Of a stretch of 51,513 nucleotides of DNA, positions 6,313 to 17,640 are shown piece by piece. The stretch spans positions 1-51,513 of the forward strand of contig NZ_NUGT01000023.1 of the NCBI RefSeq assembly GCF_002574545.1. Reading direction: 5' to 3'. Position numbers and translations under genes: made by a program. The number at the start of each line of letters is the position of its first letter. Within the stretch, counting starts at the first letter, position 1. The stretch is from Bacillus sp. AFS055030. Lineage in GTDB: Bacteria; Bacillota; Bacilli; Bacillales; Bacillaceae_G. Below the pieces are notes generated by a model. It was not told the DNA's origin. It saw nothing but the letters and a program-made list of their open reading frames with translations, and did not search any database.

Positions 6313-8115
6313 ATGTGTGGAATCGTTGGATATATTGGAAATGATAATGCGAAAGAAATTTTATTAAAAGGTTTAGAGAAATTAGAGTATCGTGGTTACG
6401 ATTCTGCTGGGATTTCTCTTTTAACTGACAATGGTGTAGAAGTTTATAAAGAAAAAGGTAGAATTGCTGTATTACGTAAGTCAATTCCTTCAAAAGCGGA
6501 CGGAAATGTTGGTATTGGTCATACTAGATGGGCGACGCATGGTGCGCCAAGTAAACGTAATGCACATCCTCATCAGAGCTCTACTGAACGTTTTACACTT
6601 GTTCACAATGGCGTTATCGAGAACGATGTACAATTAAAAAACGATTATTTAAATGATATTGAATTTACAAGTGATACAGATACTGAAGTTATTGTTCAGT
6701 TAGTTGAACTTAATATTAAAAAAGGATTATCTGTACTTGATGCTTTCAGAGAAACACTTAAGCTTCTTAAAGGTTCTTATGCAATTGCATTATTAGATAA
6801 ACAAAACGATGACGTAATTTATGTAGCAAAAAACAAAAGTCCATTACTAGTTGGTGTTGGTGAAGAGTTTAATGTTATTGCATCGGATGCAATGGCAATG
6901 TTACAAATTACTGATCAATTTATTGAATTAATGGATAAAGAGGTTATTGTCGTTACGAAAGATCATGTTCAATTAATGGACCTTAACGGAAATATTAAAG
7001 AACGTTCTCCATATACAGCAGAAATTGATGCTAGCGATATCGAAAAAGGAACTTATCCTCATTTCATGTTAAAAGAAACAGATGAGCAACCTTTAGTAAT
7101 CCGTAATATTATCCAAAAGTACCAAGATGAAAACGGAGAGCTTGTAATCAACTCAGAAATTAAAGCAGCATTAGCAGAAGCTGACAGATTATATATTGTT
7201 GCTTGTGGAACTAGTTATCATGCTGGCCTTGTAGGAAAACAGTTTATTGAAAAAATGGCGGGAGTTCCTGTAGAAGTACATGTTGCAAGTGAATTCTCTT
7301 ACAATATGCCATTACTTTCAGAAAAACCATTATTTATTTATATTTCACAAAGTGGTGAAACTGCTGATAGCCGAGCTTGTTTAGTTCAAACAAATAAATT
7401 AGGTCATAAAGCAATTACAATTACAAACGTTCCTGGATCAACATTATCACGTGAGGCTGAGTTCACTCTTGCTTTACACGCAGGTCCTGAAATCGCTGTT
7501 GCATCAACGAAAGCTTACACTGCACAATTAGCAGTACTTGCAATTGTTGCAAATGCTCTTGCAAAAGAAAAAGGAAAAACAGTTAACTTTAACCTAGTTA
7601 AAGAACTTGGAATTGTAGCAAATGCAATGGAATCAATTACAAACCAAAAAGACGAGTTTGAAAAAATTGCTACAGAATATTTAGCTACAACTCGCAATGC
7701 ATTCTTCATCGGCCGTAACGTAGATTACTTCGTTTGCCTAGAAGGCGCATTAAAACTAAAAGAAATTTCTTACATCCAAGCAGAAGGATTTGCTGGTGGA
7801 GAGTTAAAACATGGTACAATTGCTCTAATCGAAGAAGGAACTCCAATCTTCGCATTAGCAACACAAGAATCAGTAAACTTAAACATTCGTGGAAATGTGA
7901 AAGAGGTTGTTGCTCGCGGTGCTAACCCTTGTATCATTTCAATGGAAGGATTAAACATGGAAGGCGATCGCTTCATTTTACCAAGAGTACAAGAAGAATT
8001 ATCTCCAATCCTTTCAGTAGTACCATTACAATTAATTTCTTACTATGCTGCACTACATCGTGGTTGTGATGTTGATAAACCTCGTAATCTTGCAAAATCA
8101 GTTACAGTTGAATAA
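6313..8115 (+). CDS. glmS: glutamine-fructose-6-phosphate aminotransferase GlmS
   Basis: Makes glucosamine-6-phosphate from fructose-6-phosphate and glutamine, the committed step to amino sugars. The start is fixed by the N-terminal nucleophile Cys2 (MCGIVGYIG). The glutaminase domain covers about 1-220 ([14 protein letters not shown] motifs); two SIS sugar-isomerase domains fill the rest ([18 protein letters not shown]), and the end [15 protein letters not shown] is canonical. 600 residues. No convincing Shine-Dalgarno sequence lies within 15 bases of the ATG. Controlled by the upstream ribozyme, so its own product switches it off. Confidence 0.98.
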
Positions 8116-8183
8116 TCAAATTAGTAATCTATTAAATACTAAAATAAAGATTTGAAAATAAACTGAGCAGGGAGTGTAAAACG

Positions 8184-8282
8184 GTGATCAAATTTAACGA
8201 TGAAAATAGGATTCCTACAAAAGATGATTTTCATGTAAGTGAAATTGATGAACGTGTTGTAATAAGAAAGCCGATTAAATAA
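8184..8282 (+). CDS. 32-residue mini-protein, paralogue 1 (function unknown)
   Basis: A short GTG-start frame preceded by GGGAGTG (8170-8176) and followed 18 bases on by a terminator. It encodes 32 residues whose centre reads IPTKDDFHVSEIDERVVI and ends in KP. A second frame at 17245 encodes almost the same core, with synonymous and conservative differences, so this is very probably translated. It begins 68 bases after glmS with no terminator between, so it may share the ribozyme-controlled transcript. Very acidic centre, basic tail, no membrane segment, no Cys. I do not recognise the family. Confidence 0.7.
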   Translation: MIKFNDENRIPTKDDFHVSEIDERVVIRKPIK

Positions 8283-8300
8283 ACTAATTTAAAAATAATT

Positions 8301-8335
8301 AAGGGCTGATGGATTCCATTAGTCCTTTTCTTTTA
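8301..8335 (+). terminator. terminator of the glmS transcript
   Basis: 12-bp stem AAGGGCTGATGG/CCATTAGTCCTT with two G-U pairs and an ATT loop, then a T-rich tail. It closes glmS plus the mini-ORF. Confidence 0.88.
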
Positions 8336-8364
8336 TTTATAGCTACTGTATTTTATCCATATAT

Positions 8365-8393
8365 ATGAAATAATTACAAATATTGGGTATAAT
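8365..8393 (+). promoter_or_regulatory. probable promoter of the tetR-family gene
   Basis: ATGAAA, 17 bases, perfect TATAAT (8388-8393) preceded by GGG. Leaves a leader of about 125 bases before the regulator start; no operator-like palindrome matching the site at 15291 is visible here. Confidence 0.5.
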
Positions 8394-8526
8394 ACTAGAT
8401 GGATTTAGAAATGGCAAAATAAGAATAGTCCAATCTTAAGTAGTTTTAAATCAACACACTTATAATAAAGAAATTATCGATTCTCATATTTAGTTTATTT
8501 TTAAATTAAGGAGGTTGAATAGTAAA

Positions 8527-9105
8527 ATGGCAAGGTCAAAGGAATTTGAAGTAGATGCTGTTCTACTTAAAGCTATGCGGTTATTTTGGGAACAAGGTTA
8601 CGAAAAGACATCTATGCAAGATCTTGTCTCGCATATGGGCATACACAAAGGGAGTATGTATGACACTTTTGGCGATAAACAATCATTATATTTTAAATCA
8701 TTAGAGCGTTATATTGAGTTTTCGCAGCAAACGCTTATAAAGGAGCTAGCTAATACCCGTTCGGCCAAAGAAGCGATCCAAGTATTTTTCGAATTGTCAA
8801 TTGACAAACAGGAAGAATTACCTACTGGATGTTTAATAGTGAATACTGCGGTTGAGTTAGCAAAACATGATTTAGAAGCAAGAGATTGGGTTCTTCAAAG
8901 TTGGGGTTTTACAGAGCAGTTAATACATGACATTATACTAGAAGGTCAAAGAATGGGAGAACTTTCTAAGAAATTAGATGCAAAAGAATTATCTTATTAT
9001 TTTATTAATGCAATAATTGGATTTCGTGTAATGGTTAAGACTGATCCTGACCGAGAAAAATTACGCAAAATAATGGAAATAAATTTGTCAGTACTTGATA
9101 ATTAG
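8527..9105 (+). CDS. TetR/AcrR family transcriptional regulator
   Basis: One-domain-plus-ligand-domain repressor of 192 residues. The N-terminal helix-turn-helix is clear (MRLFWEQGYEKTSMQDL, then MGIHKGSMYDTFGDKQSLY, about 14-50); the C-terminal half is a helical effector-binding domain with TGCLIVNTAVELA, typical of the TetR_C group seen in YxaF- and LmrA-like proteins. ATG at 8527 lies 12 bases after AAGGAGG; the in-frame TTG at 8515 abuts that site. Transcribed alone. Its target is unknown; the operator-like repeats around 15291-15485, before the epoxide hydrolase, are candidates. Confidence 0.9.
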   Translation: MARSKEFEVDAVLLKAMRLFWEQGYEKTSMQDLVSHMGIHKGSMYDTFGDKQSLYFKSLERYIEFSQQTLIKELANTRSAKEAIQVFFELSIDKQEELPTGCLIVNTAVELAKHDLEARDWVLQSWGFTEQLIHDIILEGQRMGELSKKLDAKELSYYFINAIIGFRVMVKTDPDREKLRKIMEINLSVLDN

Positions 9106-9244
9106 TGTGGGACTTTTTGCTTGCCAAACCAATTTAGTGAGCACAGGTCTGTGTTTGAGAGCCAACAAAGACCTGACCAAAGTAATAAAATAAAAAGACT
9201 ACCCAATCCGTCTAGCAGATCATAATTTCGAAGTCACAAAAAAC

Positions 9245-9272
9245 CGGCCCCAAACTTCGGAGCCGTTTTTGT
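9245..9272. terminator. bidirectional terminator between tetR gene and ger operon
   Basis: 7-bp GC-rich stem CGGCCCC/GGAGCCG with one G-U pair and a 7-base loop, flanked by As on the left and Ts on the right, so it can end both converging transcripts. The preceding 9106-9240 holds a weaker AGGTCT/AGACCT hairpin and no gene. Confidence 0.85.
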
Positions 9273-9273
9273 T

Positions 9274-10374
9274 TTATTTAGATTTCCCTGTATTCGTCAT
9301 ATCTACTTTTACATTTACTTTGTAATCTATGTTTTTGTATACCTTATTCCAATCCATCTTGTTCCATCTTTCATATGATACGTGATTACGTACTAATGTT
9401 CCCATTCCAATCGGGTCTGTCTGTTCTTTTTGTAATATTTTTAGAAGTTTTTTTGAATTGGTTTTTAAGTAATTTTCGACTTGTTTCTCCAATTTTTTTT
9501 GATTTTTTTCTTTACTCAAATCCATTGTTCCTGTGTATTCAAGGATACTTCCTTTTAAATATAAATTGATTACAACTGTTGTATTTGTAAATTTGTTGAT
9601 GTTTACTTTTTTATCATTTTTAGAATTTATATTGCTTAACATTAACTGATCGATTTTTCCTGAATCTTTTATGTTAATCATTAAACTTCCATTATTAATA
9701 TCGTCATTTATAAAATTTAGTATTTGTGCTTCACTTAATGGAAGTAACCTAACATATTGATCGCCTCTAAAAGTGCCTAATCCTTTTAATGCTATGTTTT
9801 CACCTTCATATGAAAAAACAGGTAAAACTGGATCGATTCCGTCATCGTAATAATCCCTTAAAAAACGATATTTATCAGTATTTAAAATTTTGTTTTGCTT
9901 ACCTAATTTATCAATGAATGTATATAAATATTCAGACACATCTGGAACCGAAGCTATTTTCTTTTTTAGAAGTTCTTCTCCTTTGCCTTCCACAATAGCA
10001 AATTTAACTCGGGTTCCGAATTCAGGATCCCTTGTAAAGGATTTAACGATATTTATCAGTCCTTTTTTTGCCAATTTTTCTCCGAATATGATCGATCCTT
10101 GTCCTCCGACTAACTTCAAGTTCGTTAGATTTTGAAGTTTGATAAAAGTATCATGTGATGACTTTCCGGATACAGTTAGCGTTTGAGTACCGAATTTTCC
10201 TTCTTTTGAAACTGTAGGAAAAAGGACTGTTGTTATGATAGGATTTTCTTCGTTCTCCGACAAATCGTAAGCGCCAGCTTGTAGTATTGCTAAATCTTCA
10301 ATAACGTTACTAGTTCCACAACTTGTTAAAAATAAACAGCATATTGCGATTAATACAGTAATTTTATTTTGCAT
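9274..10374 (-). CDS. Ger(x)C family germinant-receptor lipoprotein (C subunit)
   Basis: Third subunit of a GerA-type nutrient receptor in the inner membrane of the spore. The signal peptide ends in the lipobox LTSC, so Cys19 should carry the lipid anchor. The 366-residue body follows the family layout of mixed alpha/beta domains, with the C-terminal domain containing the characteristic FT-NTTVVINLYLKGSI strand region and a conserved end. Its ATG overlaps the stop of the B subunit gene by 11 bases. Order A-B-C is that of the gerA operon of B. subtilis. Expected to be made in the forespore; no clear SigG promoter could be fixed. Confidence 0.94.
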   Translation of the reverse strand: MQNKITVLIAICCLFLTSCGTSNVIEDLAILQAGAYDLSENEENPIITTVLFPTVSKEGKFGTQTLTVSGKSSHDTFIKLQNLTNLKLVGGQGSIIFGEKLAKKGLINIVKSFTRDPEFGTRVKFAIVEGKGEELLKKKIASVPDVSEYLYTFIDKLGKQNKILNTDKYRFLRDYYDDGIDPVLPVFSYEGENIALKGLGTFRGDQYVRLLPLSEAQILNFINDDINNGSLMINIKDSGKIDQLMLSNINSKNDKKVNINKFTNTTVVINLYLKGSILEYTGTMDLSKEKNQKKLEKQVENYLKTNSKKLLKILQKEQTDPIGMGTLVRNHVSYERWNKMDWNKVYKNIDYKVNVKVDMTNTGKSK

Positions 10375-11458
10375 TAGCTGTCTCCCGATTAATTAGGTTT
10401 CTAATAATCTCAATAAAAAGGATAAACAATACAATGATAGGTAAGAGCCATGCTATGCCAATTCCACAATAACTCAACCAATTTAACCACTGTTCAACAT
10501 CTATTACTGAATCCGGCAACAACGCAAGTATAAAACCACTTGCTAAGATTACTAAAATCCAAATAGTGGGCTTCAATTTTTTGAACATATTTCCTAAAAA
10601 TTGTTGTGAGCCCCAGTAATATATGACTACAGTTGATAATATTTTAAAGGCAAAAACAGAAAAGCATAGATTCTCGGCTCTTGAAAGAAAAGAAACCTCA
10701 GTATATTCAAACAGTGTCATTACAGGATAAATATCATTTAATATTTGATCAAAGCTAAAAAACCCAAAACTAACAAATAGGATAATGACATAGATTAACA
10801 TCGACATAAAGTTTCCAATAAAAAGGGCCTTTGTCCATTTTTTTTCTACCATTGGAAAAAAAAGAATTGAAACTTCAATACCTAAAAACGCTGAGTAAAC
10901 TTGAAGTGATCCTTTGAGAAAATCAGTCTGACCTTTAAAAAAGAAAGTAGTAAAACGTGAAAAATTAAATTCTGGAAAAAGGTAGAAAATTAAAAAAATC
11001 ATCGGTATTACAAAGCAAAATAAAAGTGCTATGGCTTTAGTGAATTTGTAAATTCCACCCCGTAATAATTGAAAACTTAATAAAGTAAAAAGAATGATAA
11101 AGATCGAAACTGGTAAAGCGGGAAAGAACATCATTTTAAAAATATTGATATATAATCTCATCACCATGCTTGCTATTCCAACCCAAACGCCAATAATAAA
11201 CAAATAGATGGGGAACATAATCCATTTTGGAACAGTTGCCTCAATGATTTCAAATACGGAACGACCTTTTCCTAGTTTATAAATCATCACAATCATAAAA
11301 ATATTAAAATTTACGAGTATAAATATAAAAAAGATACTTATCCACCCGTTGGTCCCAAAGTATTCTGCCATTACTCGAGGTAAGCTATATAGGACAAGTC
11401 CATTTTGCATCATGTAAATTAAGATAGATAGTTGAAGTGGATGAAGTCGTTCCTTCAT
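10364..11458 (-). CDS. GerAB-type germination permease-like protein (B subunit)
   Basis: Integral membrane subunit of the germinant receptor, from the spore germination (GerAB/EndoA) branch of the APC transporter superfamily; it is thought to hold the nutrient-binding pocket. 364 residues with about ten hydrophobic helices from residue 12 onward, and the family's start pattern RLHPLQLSILIYM. The ATG at 11458 was preferred over an upstream GTG at 11488 because GGTGAT lies just before it and the family begins here. It starts 10 bases after the A subunit gene and overlaps the C subunit gene, so the three are translated together. Confidence 0.94.
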   Translation of the reverse strand: MKERLHPLQLSILIYMMQNGLVLYSLPRVMAEYFGTNGWISIFFIFILVNFNIFMIVMIYKLGKGRSVFEIIEATVPKWIMFPIYLFIIGVWVGIASMVMRLYINIFKMMFFPALPVSIFIILFTLLSFQLLRGGIYKFTKAIALLFCFVIPMIFLIFYLFPEFNFSRFTTFFFKGQTDFLKGSLQVYSAFLGIEVSILFFPMVEKKWTKALFIGNFMSMLIYVIILFVSFGFFSFDQILNDIYPVMTLFEYTEVSFLSRAENLCFSVFAFKILSTVVIYYWGSQQFLGNMFKKLKPTIWILVILASGFILALLPDSVIDVEQWLNWLSYCGIGIAWLLPIIVLFILFIEIIRNLINRETANAK

Positions 11459-11468
11459 ATGATCACCA

Positions 11469-12959
11469 TCAATTCCTTTCTCGATCACCTTTGTAATGCA
11501 TCTTTGTTTGAGCTTTCCTTATTTTGTAAAAAGGCCCTCTCACAATACTATCCATCCAATCTTTGACAAAGGTTGGTGAAATTGGCATAAAATAAGGCGA
11601 CTTTAAATTTGTCAAACCTGTTAAATGAATGGTCAGTATTCCTAAAACGAAGAAAATTCCAATATTCCCTAAAAACCCAGCCATTAATATAAATAAAAAC
11701 CTTACGATTCGTATCGAAGCACTCATAATATAACTAGGGACGATGAACGAAGCAATGGCTGATATAGCAACAACAATAATTAAGATATTACTTGTAATTC
11801 CAGCTTCTACAGCTGCTTGTCCAATAACAATACCGCCAACGATTCCAATTGTTTGCCCTATTTTTGTAGGAAGCCTTGCACCAGCCTCCCTAAGCAGTTC
11901 AATAACAATTTCTAGAAATATTGCTTCGACTAAAGGAGGAAAGGGAACTCTACTTCTAGATTGCATAATGCTCTGAAGTAGGGATTGTGGGATCATTTCG
12001 TAATGAAATGTACAGATTGAAACATAAAATGCTGTAAGAATTAATGTAATAAATAAAGCCATATATCGCAAAATCCTAACCATAGTCCCCATGATCCAAC
12101 GCTGGTTATAGTCATCTGTTGATTCAAAAAAATCAAAGAATGTAGAAGGGGTGCAAAAAATATTCGGACTATCATCTACAAGTCCAATGATCTTCCCAGC
12201 ATATAATTTTGATACGGCTACATCTGGTCTTTCAGTCGTATAAAATTGAGGAAATGGTGAATTTTGATAATCATCTATTATTTGAATTAATACATTAGAG
12301 TCAGTAATGGAATCAACTTTGAGCGATTTAATTCTTTCTTTAAGATGATTCACTTTATCTAAATCAGCAATACCATCTATATACATCAAAAGAACTTTCG
12401 TTTTAGAAATCTCTCCAACACATAGATTAATCATTTTCAAACGAGGACTTCTTACTCTTCTTCTTATTAATGATACATTCGTATTTAAAGCTTCATTAAA
12501 CGAATCATGTGGCCCATTTATAACAGTTTCCGTTTCAGACTGGGCAATGGCACGTTCCTCTAGTCCGGATACATTGATTAGATATGTATCCTCTCCATTA
12601 AACAAGGCAACATTACCGTCTAAAATTCCATTGATTACTTCTTTCTGATTATTTTCTATTCTAAACAATGATTGTTGAAATAGTTTTTCATAATTATAAA
12701 ATGCTATTTCTCTTAAAGGAGAAAGTACCTCTTTCTCTAGCGTATTGGAGTCAACTAGAGAGTTTAAATAAATAATTTTAATATCATTTTGATTAAATGA
12801 ACGATGGACAAGATCAAAACTTTCATCAAAATAATTTAGTGTTGTTTCATAAGTAGCTTCTGAAATTGTATTCTCCTCAGAATCTAATTCAGTATTATGA
12901 GAACTAACAAAACCTTTTTGTAAGAAAATCTTTTTATCTTTTGTTCGAAAGCGACTCAT
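11469..12959 (-). CDS. GerA family spore germination protein (A subunit)
   Basis: Largest subunit of the spore germinant receptor. A hydrophilic N-terminal half of about 300 residues is followed by four to five membrane helices; the signature PFPPLVEAIFLEIVIELLRE (about 330-350) and the following GARLPTKIGQTIGIVGG stretch identify the GerA family. 496 residues, normal for the family. First gene of the operon, with AAGGAAGG before its ATG. Which nutrient it detects cannot be read from sequence. Confidence 0.96.
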   Translation of the reverse strand: MSRFRTKDKKIFLQKGFVSSHNTELDSEENTISEATYETTLNYFDESFDLVHRSFNQNDIKIIYLNSLVDSNTLEKEVLSPLREIAFYNYEKLFQQSLFRIENNQKEVINGILDGNVALFNGEDTYLINVSGLEERAIAQSETETVINGPHDSFNEALNTNVSLIRRRVRSPRLKMINLCVGEISKTKVLLMYIDGIADLDKVNHLKERIKSLKVDSITDSNVLIQIIDDYQNSPFPQFYTTERPDVAVSKLYAGKIIGLVDDSPNIFCTPSTFFDFFESTDDYNQRWIMGTMVRILRYMALFITLILTAFYVSICTFHYEMIPQSLLQSIMQSRSRVPFPPLVEAIFLEIVIELLREAGARLPTKIGQTIGIVGGIVIGQAAVEAGITSNILIIVVAISAIASFIVPSYIMSASIRIVRFLFILMAGFLGNIGIFFVLGILTIHLTGLTNLKSPYFMPISPTFVKDWMDSIVRGPFYKIRKAQTKMHYKGDRERN

Positions 12960-13054
12960 TCAAGTACCTTCCTTTTAAACCAATATACCTTATAATATTT
13001 ACCAAGAATTGTACAAGTATGTATTCAAATACTACATAGAACAGTGACCTAAAT

Positions 13055-13090
13055 AGAAAAAACTGCCAGGAAACAAAACCATGGCAGTTT
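13055..13090 (-). terminator. terminator of the flavin-binding protein gene
   Basis: 9-bp stem with arms at 13060-13068 and 13082-13090 (AAACTGCCA/TGGCAGTTT); on the minus strand a T run follows. Lies between the stop of the upstream minus-strand gene and the ger operon. Confidence 0.85.
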
Positions 13091-13122
13091 AGATATGATT
13101 TAAAAAGGTATGAACTTTACTT

Positions 13123-13680
13123 TTATGACCGTTGGGGAAGTACGGTCATTCCATCTTGGAACATACGATTTGTGATTTCTTCTTTTTCTTTAGCTGAAAC
13201 TGAGCTAGCAACTAACTTATAGATACCCGTTTTACCACCTAATGGGGAAACATATCGCTCTACATGACTACTACTTAATGGGCGACTATAATAGCCTGGC
13301 ACATATTTATCCAACATTACTTGCATAGCAGCCGTTGCCTCATTTAAATCATAGACGGGTTTTATTGATCCTTCTATGATTACACTCATATAAGCTGTGT
13401 CCGTCCCGGCTGGTATAGGACTAGTAATTGTACCATAGCTCGTTCCTATCGTGAAACAAGCTAAAGCATTGTTCTCCATGTAAGTGACTTTTCTTCCTTC
13501 AGATGCACCATGAAAATAAATGGCGTTATTCAGCCAAACGAAGTTAAGTGGAATGACATATGGAACGTTTTCGGAAGATAAACCTAAAAAACCAGTTTGT
13601 GCATCTTCTAGAAAGTGTTTAATTTTTACTGGGTCAGTACAAATACGGTCATAATTACGAAGTGAAAACAAAGAAACCAT
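13123..13680 (-). CDS. pyridoxamine 5'-phosphate oxidase-like FMN-binding protein
   Basis: Belongs to the NimA-like branch of the PPOX split-barrel flavoproteins, small dimeric proteins that bind FMN or related cofactors and are often linked to reduction or detoxification. 185 residues; [20 protein letters not shown] near 31-50 and [11 protein letters not shown] near 75-85 match the first barrel strands and the flavin phosphate region. The ATG at 13680 directly abuts GAGGGAG; a TTG three codons in has better spacing, so the true start may be 13671. Alone on its transcript, terminated at 13060. Substrate unknown. Confidence 0.88.
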
Positions 13681-13773
13681 CTCCCTCTTAGTTGATTATT
13701 CATAGAGTGCAAAAAATATAGGCTGGAATGATTGATTTAATGTTTTTCATACTCGTCTTAAAATAGCTATTTA

Positions 13774-13797
13774 TAAAGCAGCCCAAGGGGACTGCTT
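13774..13797 (-). terminator. terminator-like hairpin after the epoxide hydrolase
   Basis: 10-bp stem AAAGCAGTCC/GGGCTGCTTT (minus strand) with one G-U pair and a 4-base loop, 5 bases after the stop. The T tail is short. Confidence 0.6.
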
Positions 13798-13801
13798 TAA
13801 T

Positions 13802-15001
13802 TTAGCGTTGTGATTTGAAAGCTGTACGAAGTTCTGATGTTATATATTCTGGTTGTTCCCATGCTGCAAAATGTCCACCTTTTGGAAGTCTGTTATAGTG
13901 GAACAGGTTCGGGTATGCTTTTTCTGCCCAACTCTTTGGTGCTTCATATAATTCATCAGGAAAGACGCTTACAGCAACAGGGATTTTTACACCTTTCACT
14001 CCAAAGAATGAAATTCCAGCTTTACCGTTTTCCCAGTATAGACGTGAAGCAGATATAGCAGAGTTCGTTAACCAAAAAAGTGTGATATTGTCTAATACAT
14101 CGTCACGCGTTAGACCTTCTTTAACCCCTTCAAAAGATCTAGTGATTAGGGCAAGGCTTTTCCAATCATGATCAAGCATAAATGCTGCCAAACCTACAGG
14201 GGAGTCCACTAATCCAGTAAGCGTTTGTGGGCGAGTACCCATCAGAGATGCGTATGCGAATTTATTTTCAAGAACTTGAGAGACTGCTTTTTTCTCCTCA
14301 TCTGAAAGACCTGACGGCAGCGGGTTTCCAGACCAAATCGCCGCATCAACTTCAGGAGGAATTACGCCAGCCATGTTAGTGTGAATTGCAACTAAGCCAT
14401 CTGGCTCCTGAGCACCCATGAAATCTACAACAATTGCACCCCAGTCGCCACCTTGTGCTACATACTTCTTATAACCTAAGCGAGTCATCAACTCTCCATA
14501 TGCACGTGCAATACGTTTAGGATCCCATCCAGTTGAAGTTGGTTTTCCTGAGAATCCATATCCAGGCATTGATGGAATGATTACATGGAAAGCATCTGAT
14601 GCACTACCACCGTGCGCTGTAGGATTAGTAAGTGGTTCTATTAGTTTCATTTGCTCAATAATTGAACCAGGCCAACCGTGTGCAATGATAATCGGCATAG
14701 CATCTTCATGCTTCGAACGAACGTGAATAAAGTGAATATCTAGTCCGTCAATTTCAGTAATATAATTCGGTACGGCATTTAACTTAGACTCAACCTTGCG
14801 CCAATCATACTCATTTGCCCAATATCGTGCAAGCTCTTGTATTGTTGCAAGTTGTGTACCTTGAGATTGATCAGAAACAGTTTCCTTCTCTGGCCATCTA
14901 GTAGCATTGATGCGTCTACGTAATTCAATTAATTCCTCTTCTGGTACATTCACATGAAATGGACGAATTGCATTTTTTTCTAAAGTTTTATTTTGAGTCA
15001 T
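13802..15001 (-). CDS. epoxide hydrolase (alpha/beta-hydrolase, EHN domain)
   Basis: Opens epoxides to diols through an aspartyl ester intermediate; in bacteria usually a detoxifying or catabolic enzyme. The 399 residues show the N-terminal EHN domain (IRPFHVNVPEEELIELRRR, about 12-30), the oxyanion motif HGWPGS at 108-113, the nucleophile elbow GGDWGA with Asp186, and the catalytic His in KGGHFAAWEQPE near the C-terminus. Closest architecture is microsomal-type/juvenile hormone epoxide hydrolases. About 290 bases upstream lies a large TetR-type operator with a leftward promoter, suggesting induction by a small molecule. Confidence 0.94.
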   Translation of the reverse strand: MTQNKTLEKNAIRPFHVNVPEEELIELRRRINATRWPEKETVSDQSQGTQLATIQELARYWANEYDWRKVESKLNAVPNYITEIDGLDIHFIHVRSKHEDAMPIIIAHGWPGSIIEQMKLIEPLTNPTAHGGSASDAFHVIIPSMPGYGFSGKPTSTGWDPKRIARAYGELMTRLGYKKYVAQGGDWGAIVVDFMGAQEPDGLVAIHTNMAGVIPPEVDAAIWSGNPLPSGLSDEEKKAVSQVLENKFAYASLMGTRPQTLTGLVDSPVGLAAFMLDHDWKSLALITRSFEGVKEGLTRDDVLDNITLFWLTNSAISASRLYWENGKAGISFFGVKGVKIPVAVSVFPDELYEAPKSWAEKAYPNLFHYNRLPKGGHFAAWEQPEYITSELRTAFKSQR

Positions 15002-15125
15002 TTATATCTCTCCCTATTATTGATTTATTTGTCGTGCTTCAGGGTACTAAAATTAACATCTTGTTTATGAATATAATTCAAACATCAAAACTAAACTTTT
15101 ATATTCTACAGTGTTATAGTCAGGG

Positions 15126-15275
15126 TTTATTTTTTATTTAAGCAGAAGACATCAATTCTATTTAATCCAACTATGCGAGACCAGTTCATAATGGACGCTT
15201 TTATGATAAAAAAACCATTGAATAAGCTACTAAAACGATTTTATTTTTCCTGCTTGCGATGTAACCTCCTTTCGA
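15126..15275 (-). other. leader between TetR-type operator and epoxide hydrolase; decayed start site
   Basis: On the minus strand a near-perfect AAAGGAGG (15265-15272) is followed not by a start codon but by ATC; the frame runs only 19 codons before a stop at a poly-T run, and continues another 25 codons if one T is added. This could be an eroded small gene or chance. The rest of 15002-15125 shows no gene. Confidence 0.25.
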
Positions 15276-15280
15276 GAACA

Positions 15281-15310
15281 AATTTAGCACATTAAAGAAC
15301 GTTCGGTCAA
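15281..15310 (-). promoter_or_regulatory. leftward promoter overlapping the TetR-type operator
   Basis: Minus strand: TTGACC (15310-15305), 18 bases, TAAATT. Its -35 lies inside the left arm of the inverted repeat, so a bound repressor would block it. It points at the epoxide hydrolase. Confidence 0.5.
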
Positions 15311-15339
15311 GAATTATTTTTGACCGTTCGTTCTTTAAT
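15291..15339. promoter_or_regulatory. long inverted repeat, TetR-type operator
   Basis: Two 20-base arms at 15291-15310 and 15320-15339 are complementary at 18 of 20 positions, separated by 9 bases. Each arm contains the pseudo-palindromic block GAACGTTCGGTC (left) or GACCGTTCGTTC (right), the style of operators bound by TetR-family dimers. Both arms contain the -35 of a promoter, one pointing each way. Confidence 0.75.
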
Positions 15340-15348
15340 AGGGATAAT
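15320..15348 (+). promoter_or_regulatory. rightward promoter overlapping the TetR-type operator
   Basis: TTGACC (15320-15325), 17 bases, GATAAT: strong by SigA rules, with the -35 inside the right operator arm. The first downstream plus-strand gene is the LysR regulator about 600 bases away; only a 9-codon frame without ribosome binding site starts near it. Confidence 0.55.
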
Positions 15349-15470
15349 AAATGGAAAACCCATATAAAAAATTTATTTAGCCAGTTTTAGGACTTATAAA
15401 GATAGTTATAGTCATAACTTGAAACCATTTGCTCAATGAAGAAAAAGAAAAAATTGGAACCAACCTATTC

Positions 15471-15485
15471 TTGACCATTCGTTCT
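15471..15485 (+). promoter_or_regulatory. third copy of the operator half-site
   Basis: TTGACCATTCGTTCT matches the right arm at 15320-15334 in 14 of 15 positions. It too begins with a -35-like TTGACC, followed 17 bases later by TATGGT, so it could form another regulated rightward promoter. Confidence 0.5.
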
Positions 15486-15951
15486 AAAAAATATATGGTT
15501 ATATCAAGATAATAAGAAATATCAAAAAAGTGATTAAATTTTTACTTTAATTCATTTGTCCTATTTTTCAATAAAATAGTTAGTTTAAATGACATAGAAA
15601 AATTGTAGTTAATAAAGTTTTTTATCATTCAAAAATAATTATGATCAATAACAATGGATGATGAATCATTAGAACACTTTTGTATTTATAAGACTAAATT
15701 AATCAAGTGGAAAGTTTGAAAACCACTAATTCAAATGACCCAGATATTTATAAAAGGGCATTCGGATTGAGTTCATTTATTAATTAAATCATTTTAATTG
15801 AAAATCCTGTATTGTTAATAAAACACAATACTTTTAATATTAAGCCTAGTCTAATAAAAATGTTAAAGGCAATTAACTTAGAAAATGTTTAGTTATTTAT
15901 TATGGTAGGCATCTTTAGACAAATGTTCTTTATGTTGAAATAAAATAAAAG
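15486..15951. other. AT-rich gene-free stretch
   Basis: About 465 bases with stops in every frame and no recognisable RNA, repeat or conserved hairpin. It separates the operator region from the LysR gene and may be remains of lost genes. Confidence 0.5.
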
Positions 15952-15963
15952 GTGGTGAATAAC

Positions 15964-16863
15964 ATGGAGTTGAAACAATTAGAATATTTTGTGGCGATTT
16001 GTGAAGAGATGCATTTTACTAAGACTGCAGATAAACTTGGGATAGGACAACCTACCTTAAGCTATCAAATTAAAGGATTAGAAGATGAGCTTGGCGTCAG
16101 ATTATTTGACAGATTAGGCAAAAAAATAGCTCTTACCGAAGCGGGTAAGATTTTATTAGAACACTCACATCAAATTTTTAATACAATCAAAGGTGCGAAT
16201 GAACAATTACAAGAACTACAAAAACTAGATAGAGGTAAGTTAGTAATTGGTGCACCATCAGGAGAATTAAGCCAAATTGCGTTACTAGCATTACTTGAGT
16301 TTCATTCCATGTATCCCCATATACAGATACAGTTTTTTGTTTTAGATAATGTTGTCGAAAAAATAAGACAAAACGAATTCGATTTAGCATTAACAATAAT
16401 GCCAATAGATGATGATGGACTAAAGATTATCCCATTATATGAAGAGGAATACTATCTAGTTGTCCATTCTGAACATATACTAGCTGATGTAAACTTACTC
16501 GAAATCACTAATCTTAAAGATATACCATTTATAATAAACCAAAAAGATCATTGCCTTAGAAAATGGATTGATTCTATATGTGGAAATTTGGGTATAATGA
16601 TTCAACCAATTATTGAAACTTCTGATGCAACGTCGATTGTTAACTTAGTTAAGGAGGGGTTAGGAGCCACAATTTTATCAAAGACACTTTATAATCTAGT
16701 GGATAACGGCCAATTAATGGCAATAAAGTTAAACCCTTCGCTTCAAAGAAATGTAGTAATGATTCATCATAAGGAAAAGTTTATCGGTTCAGCAATGAAT
16801 ATTTTTAGAAATTTATTGAATTCACATGTAGAGAAATTTAGTAGAAAGAAAGTCATTGTGTAA
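15964..16863 (+). CDS. LysR family transcriptional regulator
   Basis: DNA-binding regulator with an N-terminal winged helix-turn-helix (MELKQLEYFVAICEEMHF, TKTADKLGIGQPTLSYQI, about 1-60) and a periplasmic-binding-protein-like effector domain from about 90. 299 residues, typical. The ATG at 15964 follows AAAGGTGGTG by 6 bases; the GTG at 15952 lies inside that site. Similar in build to CynR/CysL-type members. No divergently transcribed partner is adjacent, which is unusual for LysR genes, so the target cannot be guessed. Confidence 0.93.
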   Translation: MELKQLEYFVAICEEMHFTKTADKLGIGQPTLSYQIKGLEDELGVRLFDRLGKKIALTEAGKILLEHSHQIFNTIKGANEQLQELQKLDRGKLVIGAPSGELSQIALLALLEFHSMYPHIQIQFFVLDNVVEKIRQNEFDLALTIMPIDDDGLKIIPLYEEEYYLVVHSEHILADVNLLEITNLKDIPFIINQKDHCLRKWIDSICGNLGIMIQPIIETSDATSIVNLVKEGLGATILSKTLYNLVDNGQLMAIKLNPSLQRNVVMIHHKEKFIGSAMNIFRNLLNSHVEKFSRKKVIV

Positions 16864-17009
16864 AGATAAATAAAAAGTGAAGAAAGGAAACTAGGGTTCA
16901 AACCTGGCCGCCTTGGTATTTGTTAACTGTAGGGAACTAAACTGTTTTTTCATCAAGAATAGAATTTAATTTATTAATAAAAGTCCAGGGATAAAGAGGG
17001 ATCTTGGGG

Positions 17010-17174
17010 ATGTGTAAAGAAAATAAATTACTTGAAGAAATTGAAAATCTAAGAATGCGTATGGTTAAATTAACAATTCAAAAATCCTTTTCGTATCCAG
17101 AAGTATTAAAAATTAGTCAAAACTTAGATAGCTTATTAAATAGGTATGATAAAAGTGTAATGAAAAAGATATAA
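17010..17174 (+). CDS. Spo0E-like sporulation regulatory protein
   Basis: Small phosphatase family that dephosphorylates Spo0A~P and so delays sporulation. The 54-residue product has the family's two-helix hairpin: LLEEIENLRMRMVKLTIQKS, then a turn with SYPEVLKISQNLDSLLNRY, where SQxLDxLLxxY at 36-46 is the signature that holds the catalytic Asp. ATG at 17010, with AGAGGG at 16995-17000. It sits among sporulation and stress genes, followed 70 bases later by the mini-protein gene with no terminator between. Confidence 0.87.
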   Translation: MCKENKLLEEIENLRMRMVKLTIQKSFSYPEVLKISQNLDSLLNRYDKSVMKKI

Positions 17175-17244
17175 GAATGAATCACGCAAAAAGAGTCATC
17201 ATAATATTAACAACCTTTAAAATAATGAAGATTGGGAGTGTTTC

Positions 17245-17358
17245 ATGATGAGTAAAATTAATAATGAAAACTTCATTCCAACAAAGGATGATTTTTATGT
17301 TAGTGAAGTTGATGAGCGTGTTGTAATCAAAAAACCGAATCAGGATGAAATACAATAA
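17245..17358 (+). CDS. 37-residue mini-protein, paralogue 2 (function unknown)
   Basis: ATG-start frame with GGGAGTG (17234-17240), the same ribosome binding site as its paralogue at 8184, and a terminator directly after. The core IPTKDDFYVSEVDERVVIKK differs from paralogue 1 only by H/Y, I/V and R/K; the termini diverge. Such conservation with conservative changes argues for selection on the protein. A second in-frame ATG is the next codon. No signal, no membrane segment, acidic centre. Family not recognised. Confidence 0.75.
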   Translation: MMSKINNENFIPTKDDFYVSEVDERVVIKKPNQDEIQ

Positions 17359-17363
17359 GTAAT

Positions 17364-17406
17364 GAGGCTATTTTCGTATATTAATTACGATAGCCTCTTT
17401 TTTATT
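17364..17406 (+). terminator. terminator after mini-protein 2
   Basis: Stem GAGGCTA/TAGCCTC (17364-17370, 17391-17397) with an inner TCGTA/TACGA pairing, followed by eight Ts. Confidence 0.85.
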
Positions 17407-17451
17407 AGTTAAGATTCTTCTCCCTATTTTATTAGGAAATGAGATAATGGA

Positions 17452-17640
17452 ACTAAACGAGAAGACTATGCTAGAATATTTGACTTGTTTTTAGATCCAA
17501 TAAAGCAAGATTAAGACGAATTGGAAGCCAAAGATTAGGCTTGGTAATTGCAAAATGGATTGTAGAAATACATAATAGTACTATTCAAGTATTCATATTA
17601 GGTGTTGTTTTTAGTACAAAAAATAATGTGTTTTCCAAAA
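17452..17640 (+). pseudogene. remnant of a sensor histidine kinase ATPase domain
   Basis: Read in one frame (from 17452) the DNA gives [10 protein letters not shown]; shifting frame near 17490 it continues [17 protein letters not shown], then [17 protein letters not shown]. Together these match the end of a HATPase_c domain: F box (IFDRFYR.DKAR.R), a damaged G2 box (GG.GLGL replaced by GSQRLGL) and IAKWIVE.H.GTI. The front of the kinase is missing and the G-loop is broken, so it is dead. The second part is in frame with mgsA, giving a falsely long mgsA ORF. Confidence 0.82.

Follow-up and report, generated by a model that had tools for sequence, protein, structure and literature searches.

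The window considered here is the whole stretch of 51,513 nucleotides (nt) formed by positions 1 to 51,513 of contig NZ_NUGT01000023.1 of Bacillus sp. AFS055030 (assembly GCF_002574545.1), a genome of the genus Gottfriedia, and the objects of study are two mini-genes in it, copy A and copy B, one directly behind glmS and the other 9 kb away; the parts of the two loci described in this paragraph lie on the forward strand. A glmS ribozyme (RF00234; 5951-6116), which scores 130 bits in Rfam against a gathering threshold of 37, stands upstream of a transcript that probably includes copy A, and is followed by glmS itself, an open reading frame (ORF) of 600 codons (6313-8115) named from its own sequence and from the ribozyme. 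A 54-nt spacer (8116-8169), whose homologous stretch hosts Tn7-like elements in two other genomes of the genus (G001 and G003), leads to a ribosome-binding site (RBS), GGGAGTG (8170-8176), that is found in all ten known A copies. Copy A (8184-8282) has 32 codons for a peptide of 32 amino acids (aa) and starts with GTG, where the other nine A copies start with ATG; it is closed by an intrinsic terminator (8301-8337) made of a hairpin of 12 pairs (8301-8327; fold z -4.10, also found by a consensus scan) and a T tract. Copy B (17245-17358), with 37 codons, 37 aa and the double start ATG ATG, was recognised as an ORF, by tblastn and by codon analysis; it is preceded by a Spo0E-like gene (17004-17174; PF09388 at 1.4e-14, searched on 17013-17171) and by the same GGGAGTG (17234-17240), and is followed by its own intrinsic terminator (17364-17404), a hairpin (17364-17397) and T tract detected by folding (z -4.25) though missed by the consensus scan (0 found).

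The two copies are 73% identical over the matched part (tblastn, expectation value (E) 2.5e-10), and a whole-genome tblastn search with copy B as query returns exactly these two places; the likeness is therefore not due to chance. Both peptides are hydrophilic, with grand averages of hydropathy of -0.81 and -0.86. An initial annotation of this DNA had placed the two frames at these positions, had taken them for paralogues with a shared core and RBS, each with its own terminator, and had pointed to the ribozyme upstream of glmS, to the absence of a terminator between glmS and position 8184 and to the Spo0E-like nature of the gene before copy B; all of this is borne out by the coordinates and scores given above and, for the missing terminator, by a site scan.

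The pattern of substitutions indicates that the mini-genes are real and encode a protein under strong purifying selection. Among 20 distinct cores drawn from the 25 intact copies of the family (the two broken copies were left out), the ratio of nonsynonymous to synonymous divergence (dN/dS) is 0.14 over 190 pairs (mean dN 0.084, mean dS 0.587), dN is smaller than dS in 189 of the pairs, and the ratio falls to 0.03 among the glmS-linked A copies, with 0.19 among B copies and 0.09 between A and B; codon-level constraint, whose absence would have counted against the initial annotation, is thus clear. Codon evidence also bears on a noncoding alternative, in which the frames are not proteins and mark only a conserved 3′ RNA or terminator module behind glmS. 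In 13 of 14 copies tested, the frame is indeed followed by a hairpin with a T tract and a folding energy of -13 kcal/mol or better (only -5.8 in a G002 copy). However, the hairpin sequences differ from copy to copy, variation reaches 17 of the 22 third codon positions and only 9 first and 5 second ones, and the open antisense frame has a ratio of 0.92. Stops interrupt the remaining two sense frames in every case, and the other two antisense frames are open in only 3 of the 190 pairs (ratios 0.30 and 1.23). The noncoding reading is highly improbable and was rejected on this codon evidence.

Family members occur at 27 places, 25 of them intact frames, in 12 of 13 Gottfriedia genomes, the window genome included; that there are homologues in 11 other genomes answers a doubt of the initial annotation, namely that the pair might have none outside its own. 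The proteins measure 31-38 residues, those of copy A 32-33 residues around the near-invariant core IPTKDDFHVSEVDERVVIRKP, and eleven residues are invariant in an alignment of 24 members (the 25th intact member, from G009, stands outside the alignment and encodes the same protein as the G010 copy). Copy A is present in 10 genomes and copy B in nine, and there are six further copies of other types. A tree built from 24 of the 25 intact cores has little resolution and does not reveal the direction of transfer.

Outside the genus the family disappears from view. Six genomes from sister genera of the same family hold no member. In 397 genomes of the order, profile A1 (E <= 0.1) gave strong matches in 11, every one within the genus, and weak matches in 20 others (best E 0.0047). 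Loci were retrieved for 19 of these 20 (L046 and L054 were not properly read); 13 are pieces of frames of 125-602 codons and four are frames of 27-64 codons that cover only part of the profile and were judged chance, one of them (L055) having an ATG and no visible RBS; none of the loci that were properly read was accepted as a homologue. A class-wide search found one of 398 genomes at E <= 0.001, the window genome itself; viral contigs, phages and plasmids gave zero matches; and a scan of named genomes, from which records very close to the window genome were possibly excluded, returned 13 loci, each from a record named Gottfriedia or "Bacillus sp.". Neither window peptide matches any Pfam or NCBIfam family at E <= 10, and so neither matches PF09388; PDB sequences searched by profile gave 0 matches at the same limit, and the best PHROGs hits of the 24 members are two unnamed families at E 0.034 (5 members) and 0.038 (4 members). 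A resemblance between the core and frames of glmS, Tns or cargo genes was also discarded, since the highest unrelated score was 41 and one of five shuffled queries reached 40. The titles and starts of abstracts of one open library contain no report of a small gene at Tn7-like right ends and no work on Gottfriedia gene biology. On these searches, the family is new and seen so far only within Gottfriedia.

At the glmS locus, the distance from the glmS stop codon to the RBS of copy A is 54-57 nt in all eight uninterrupted genomes. The window spacer contains no terminator-like and no promoter-like site and has no notable fold (z +0.60); a promoter scan around the locus gave four promoter-like sites, all outside the spacer, where 4.3 are expected by chance. 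As nothing resembling a terminator or promoter separates the two genes and a strong terminator follows copy A, glmS and copy A are probably bicistronic, copy A being read from the glmS transcript. Copy A would then be the last gene of the Gottfriedia glmS transcription unit, in the order ribozyme, glmS, mini-gene and terminator, and its peptide would be made, under ribozyme control, whenever glmS is made.

The same spacer serves as a landing site. In G003 and G001, islands lie between glmS and copy A, each with an extra mini-gene at its glmS side. The G003 island (188003-208276; 20,274 bp) and the G001 island (8686-35597; 26,912 bp) both have TGT..ACA termini and are flanked by 5-bp target duplications, CTGAT and AAAGA, respectively; removing either in silico leaves a locus that aligns with the uninterrupted ones, the G003 locus additionally lacking part of the spacer. 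Both encode TnsA, TnsB, TnsC and TnsD by Pfam (PF08722/PF08721, Mu-transpos_C, TniB/AAA_22 and PF15978/TniQ), with an additional rve match below its cut-off in G001. Arrays of TnsB-like sites of about 20 bp, mutually inverted, mark both ends of each: four sites at 20-nt steps face glmS and three wider-spaced ones lie at the far end in G003, with none elsewhere in the stretch, while G001 has three sites facing glmS (2, 4 and 0 mismatches), two at the far end (3 and 3) and a few single matches with 4-5 mismatches elsewhere. From these features, the spot between glmS and copy A is a Tn7 attachment site and the islands are Tn7-like transposons, whose ends lie 24 and 34 nt past the glmS stop. The tns genes are at the far end, behind the cargo. 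Pfam, run on two cargo genes of the G003 element, identifies them as a type I methylase and a SMODS synthetase. By eye, both elements (L088 in G003, L090 in G001) resemble defence islands, with type I restriction-like genes in each.

In both elements, the extra mini-gene sits just inside the glmS-facing right end, with no terminator-like site before it and one directly after it, and the stretch from glmS through this mini-gene contains 0 promoter-like sites (shuffle means 2.1 and 2.8). The position behind glmS is thus occupied by a family member whichever copy fills it: on a map of frames of 45 or more codons, the first mapped gene after glmS is a family member in all 12 genomes that have the family, namely copy A in eight (G000, G002, G005, G007, G009, G010, G011 and G012); in G001 and G003 it is the element's own copy, in G008 probably one from a relic end and in G006 one of another type.

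These observations can be brought together as follows. Insertion into the spacer would sever copy A from glmS, and because the elements carry their own cassette of RBS, mini-ORF and terminator just inside the right end, the order glmS, mini-gene and terminator would be restored, the element copy acting as a replacement. On this reading, which we tentatively prefer and to which we give something close to an even chance of being right, the peptide is a product of the glmS transcription unit, and the displaced gene is replaced by one that the arriving transposon carries. It is supported by the coding constraint, the positions, the transposon ends, the target duplications, the element-borne copies and the position kept despite the change of copy. 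As a guess from context, the peptide might act on GlmS or on the supply of amino sugars.

Further right ends bear on this reading in both directions, and several findings weigh against it. Clusters of two site types, sought in 13 genomes with up to 3 mismatches, recover the right ends of the two complete elements and two more, in G003 (at 2150.6 kb) and G002 (contig 38). A mini-gene follows all four clusters, which speaks for the preferred reading too. Because mini-genes had led to the ends from which the two site types were defined, only one part of this result is independent evidence, namely that no right end of either type was found bare. All other site matches are single (14 against 17 for a reversed-pattern control for one type, 2 against 30 for the other). 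The G003 end appears solo, having no partner end within 15 kb to the left or 21 kb to the right, where only single 5-mismatch matches occur, while the G002 contig stops less than 1 kb past the right end and so gives no proof of a solo end, although TnsC has no match in that genome. The copies at these two ends, away from glmS, encode the same core protein (dN 0, dS 0.47), a conservation that replacement behind glmS does not predict. A terminator-like hairpin lies just outside the G003 solo end, so that this copy may not be read from upstream, and the G002 end copy has no good terminator after it. To this must be added that copy A remains intact in G001 and G003 despite its displacement from glmS, that the G003 element copy is divergent (dN 0.21, dS 0.36 relative to G006), that two copies are broken by stops (L023 in G008, L026 in G007), that the mini-gene is dispensable in G004, the one genus genome without any member, and that only two complete elements are available.

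The presence of a mini-gene at all four right ends, two of them away from glmS and with dN 0 between their copies, speaks for another origin, in which the mini-gene was originally a working part of Tn7-like elements and copies A and B are domesticated leftovers of old insertions. Its peptide might, for instance, be produced only where an active glmS promoter lies ahead of the right end, and might report integration or damp transposition. The lack of a promoter-like site before the mini-gene in either complete element fits this as well, as does the resemblance, by eye, of the hairpin after the A copies to that after the G003 solo-end copy. Against it, TnsC is found in only 2 of the 13 genus genomes and the mini-gene in 12, and, in a control run on the window, no match to either of the two clear site types lies within 5 kb of copy A. 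An origin as an element part is possible but rather unlikely. A more specific version, which we consider distinctly doubtful, would make the mini-protein an integration-sensing component of Tn7-like elements, on only after landing behind glmS, with an output that follows glmS and its glucosamine-6-phosphate ribozyme, two copies having been domesticated by the host; if true, the peptide would tell the element that it has homed safely.

A third site type may be represented in G008, where three repeats at 22-nt steps (5, 0 and 5 mismatches) lie between glmS and the mini-gene, on one side only and 19 nt from the stop. There is neither a TnsC nor a second end, so that it does not qualify as a Tn7-like transposon, and since this AT-rich site type has 22 weak matches in the 51.5-kb control window, the stretch is only probably, and at most, a relic end; the setting of the broken copy L026 in G007 resembles it by eye. 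Single sites like a second Tn7-like end type (AAGTCGGG) were also seen by eye beside right ends, at about 7675 in L080 (G003) and about 5267 in L084 (G002), as if elements of different types had been stacked. Tn7-like elements are described as inserting in or beside one another (PMC8649781), and together with these single sites and the broken copies L023 and L026 this favours pure passenger capture, whereby a gene beside a Tn7 hot spot, with an unrelated host role, was picked up repeatedly by stacked or composite insertions to no benefit of the element. Passengers should turn up at varied positions and decay, yet both complete elements have an intact mini-gene directly inside their right end; we regard capture of this kind as unlikely.

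Comparison with other genera bears again on whether the mini-gene is an ancestral element part. TnsD is encoded in 57 of the 397 genomes of the order, 55 of them outside the genus, and the family profile, run on 397 genomes that are apparently the same draw, scores strongly in none outside the genus, which argues against such an origin. The stretch behind glmS was inspected in 30 genomes of other genera, six relatives and 24 with TnsD. In 21 of the 24 and in none of the six, repeats spaced about 20 nt apart exceed a shuffled control, the 21 scoring at least 15 of 20 and the control at most 13, and a tnsA-like gene lies within 1.5 kb behind glmS in 11 of the 24; the family motif occurs behind glmS in 0 of the 30 (0 of the 24 with TnsD). 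In several of these elements, a hairpin is seen by eye just inside the end, before tnsA. With such hairpins elsewhere and the motif in none of the 30, a terminator just inside a Tn7-like end looks common and a conserved, translated mini-gene there looks peculiar to Gottfriedia. L112 (G299) and L114 (G162) show, by eye, another short frame some 232 nt past glmS, located between tnsA and the end repeats; it is unrelated, has an RBS-like motif, extends through a hairpin and may encode a leader peptide of these elements. Behind glmS in G004 (L096) lie a hairpin and start codon that match the leader of a tnsA-like gene in G031 (score 77, where shuffles reach at most 33), with similar leaders in G261 and G152 and none in G013 or G270; a remnant of a transposon thus seems to have taken the place of the mini-gene there.

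The surroundings of copy B are less constant. Nine genomes have B, and only two of them, that of the window and G011, show a Spo0E-like match (frames of 45 or more codons, E <= 1e-5) beside it, which rules out a Spo0E partnership as a general rule. The initial annotation had suggested that the pair may be small regulators or adaptor peptides and had described it as duplicated, conserved and in regulated contexts; this description stands for the glmS side, with its selection, fixed spacing in eight of eight genomes and ribozyme, and falls as a generality for the spo0E context. A and B are 288-313 nt apart in the other seven genomes and 9.4 kb apart in G011, and a rearrangement common to the window genome and G011 probably explains the 9-kb gap; copy B would go back to an old duplication and have come to lie 9 kb from copy A in this lineage. 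Directly behind it (17449-17591) are the remains of a histidine kinase gene, two pieces in different frames that are 74% and 71% identical to a gene that is intact at the corresponding position in G010; the neighbouring G010 genes, for a 136-aa protein, a PspA-like protein and a response regulator, have no match in the window.

Known systems offer partial parallels. In Tn7, TnsD recognises the 3′ end of glmS and insertion is described at about 20 bp past the glmS stop (PMC2918618), with sites crowded together at the target-proximal end and more widely spaced at the other (PMC11406308). The Gottfriedia elements share TnsABCD, packed versus spaced end sites, the TGT..ACA termini, the 5-bp duplication and insertion close behind glmS; they differ in the conserved cassette inside the right end and in having their tns genes at the far end, behind cargo. 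Islands that target transfer RNA (tRNA) genes restore the gene end that they disrupt. There, too, the element supplies what insertion removes, but here a whole downstream mini-gene, and not the 3′ end of the target gene, would be replaced. The gene for the small protein CydX sits in the operon of its larger partner. CydX has 37 aa and is part of cytochrome bd oxidase (PMC4325964); the mini-protein is likened to it by size and by the probable position of its gene in the operon of a larger one. Elsewhere in the window lies a lysine riboswitch (RF00168; 30963-31136; 118.7 bits), and tRNA clusters with several members of equal Rfam scores in the same order occupy both contig ends (31-837 and 50456-51371), which are perhaps assembly breaks at repeated rRNA-tRNA operons.

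If the replacement reading is true, insertion behind glmS would not be neutral in Gottfriedia: the "safe haven" of Tn7 would hold a gene, and the transposons would pay for their place by bringing a copy of it. A new, tiny protein would then probably be tied to a metabolite-sensing ribozyme, and mobile copies may offer a route by which a nameless mini-gene of this kind can be found and supported.

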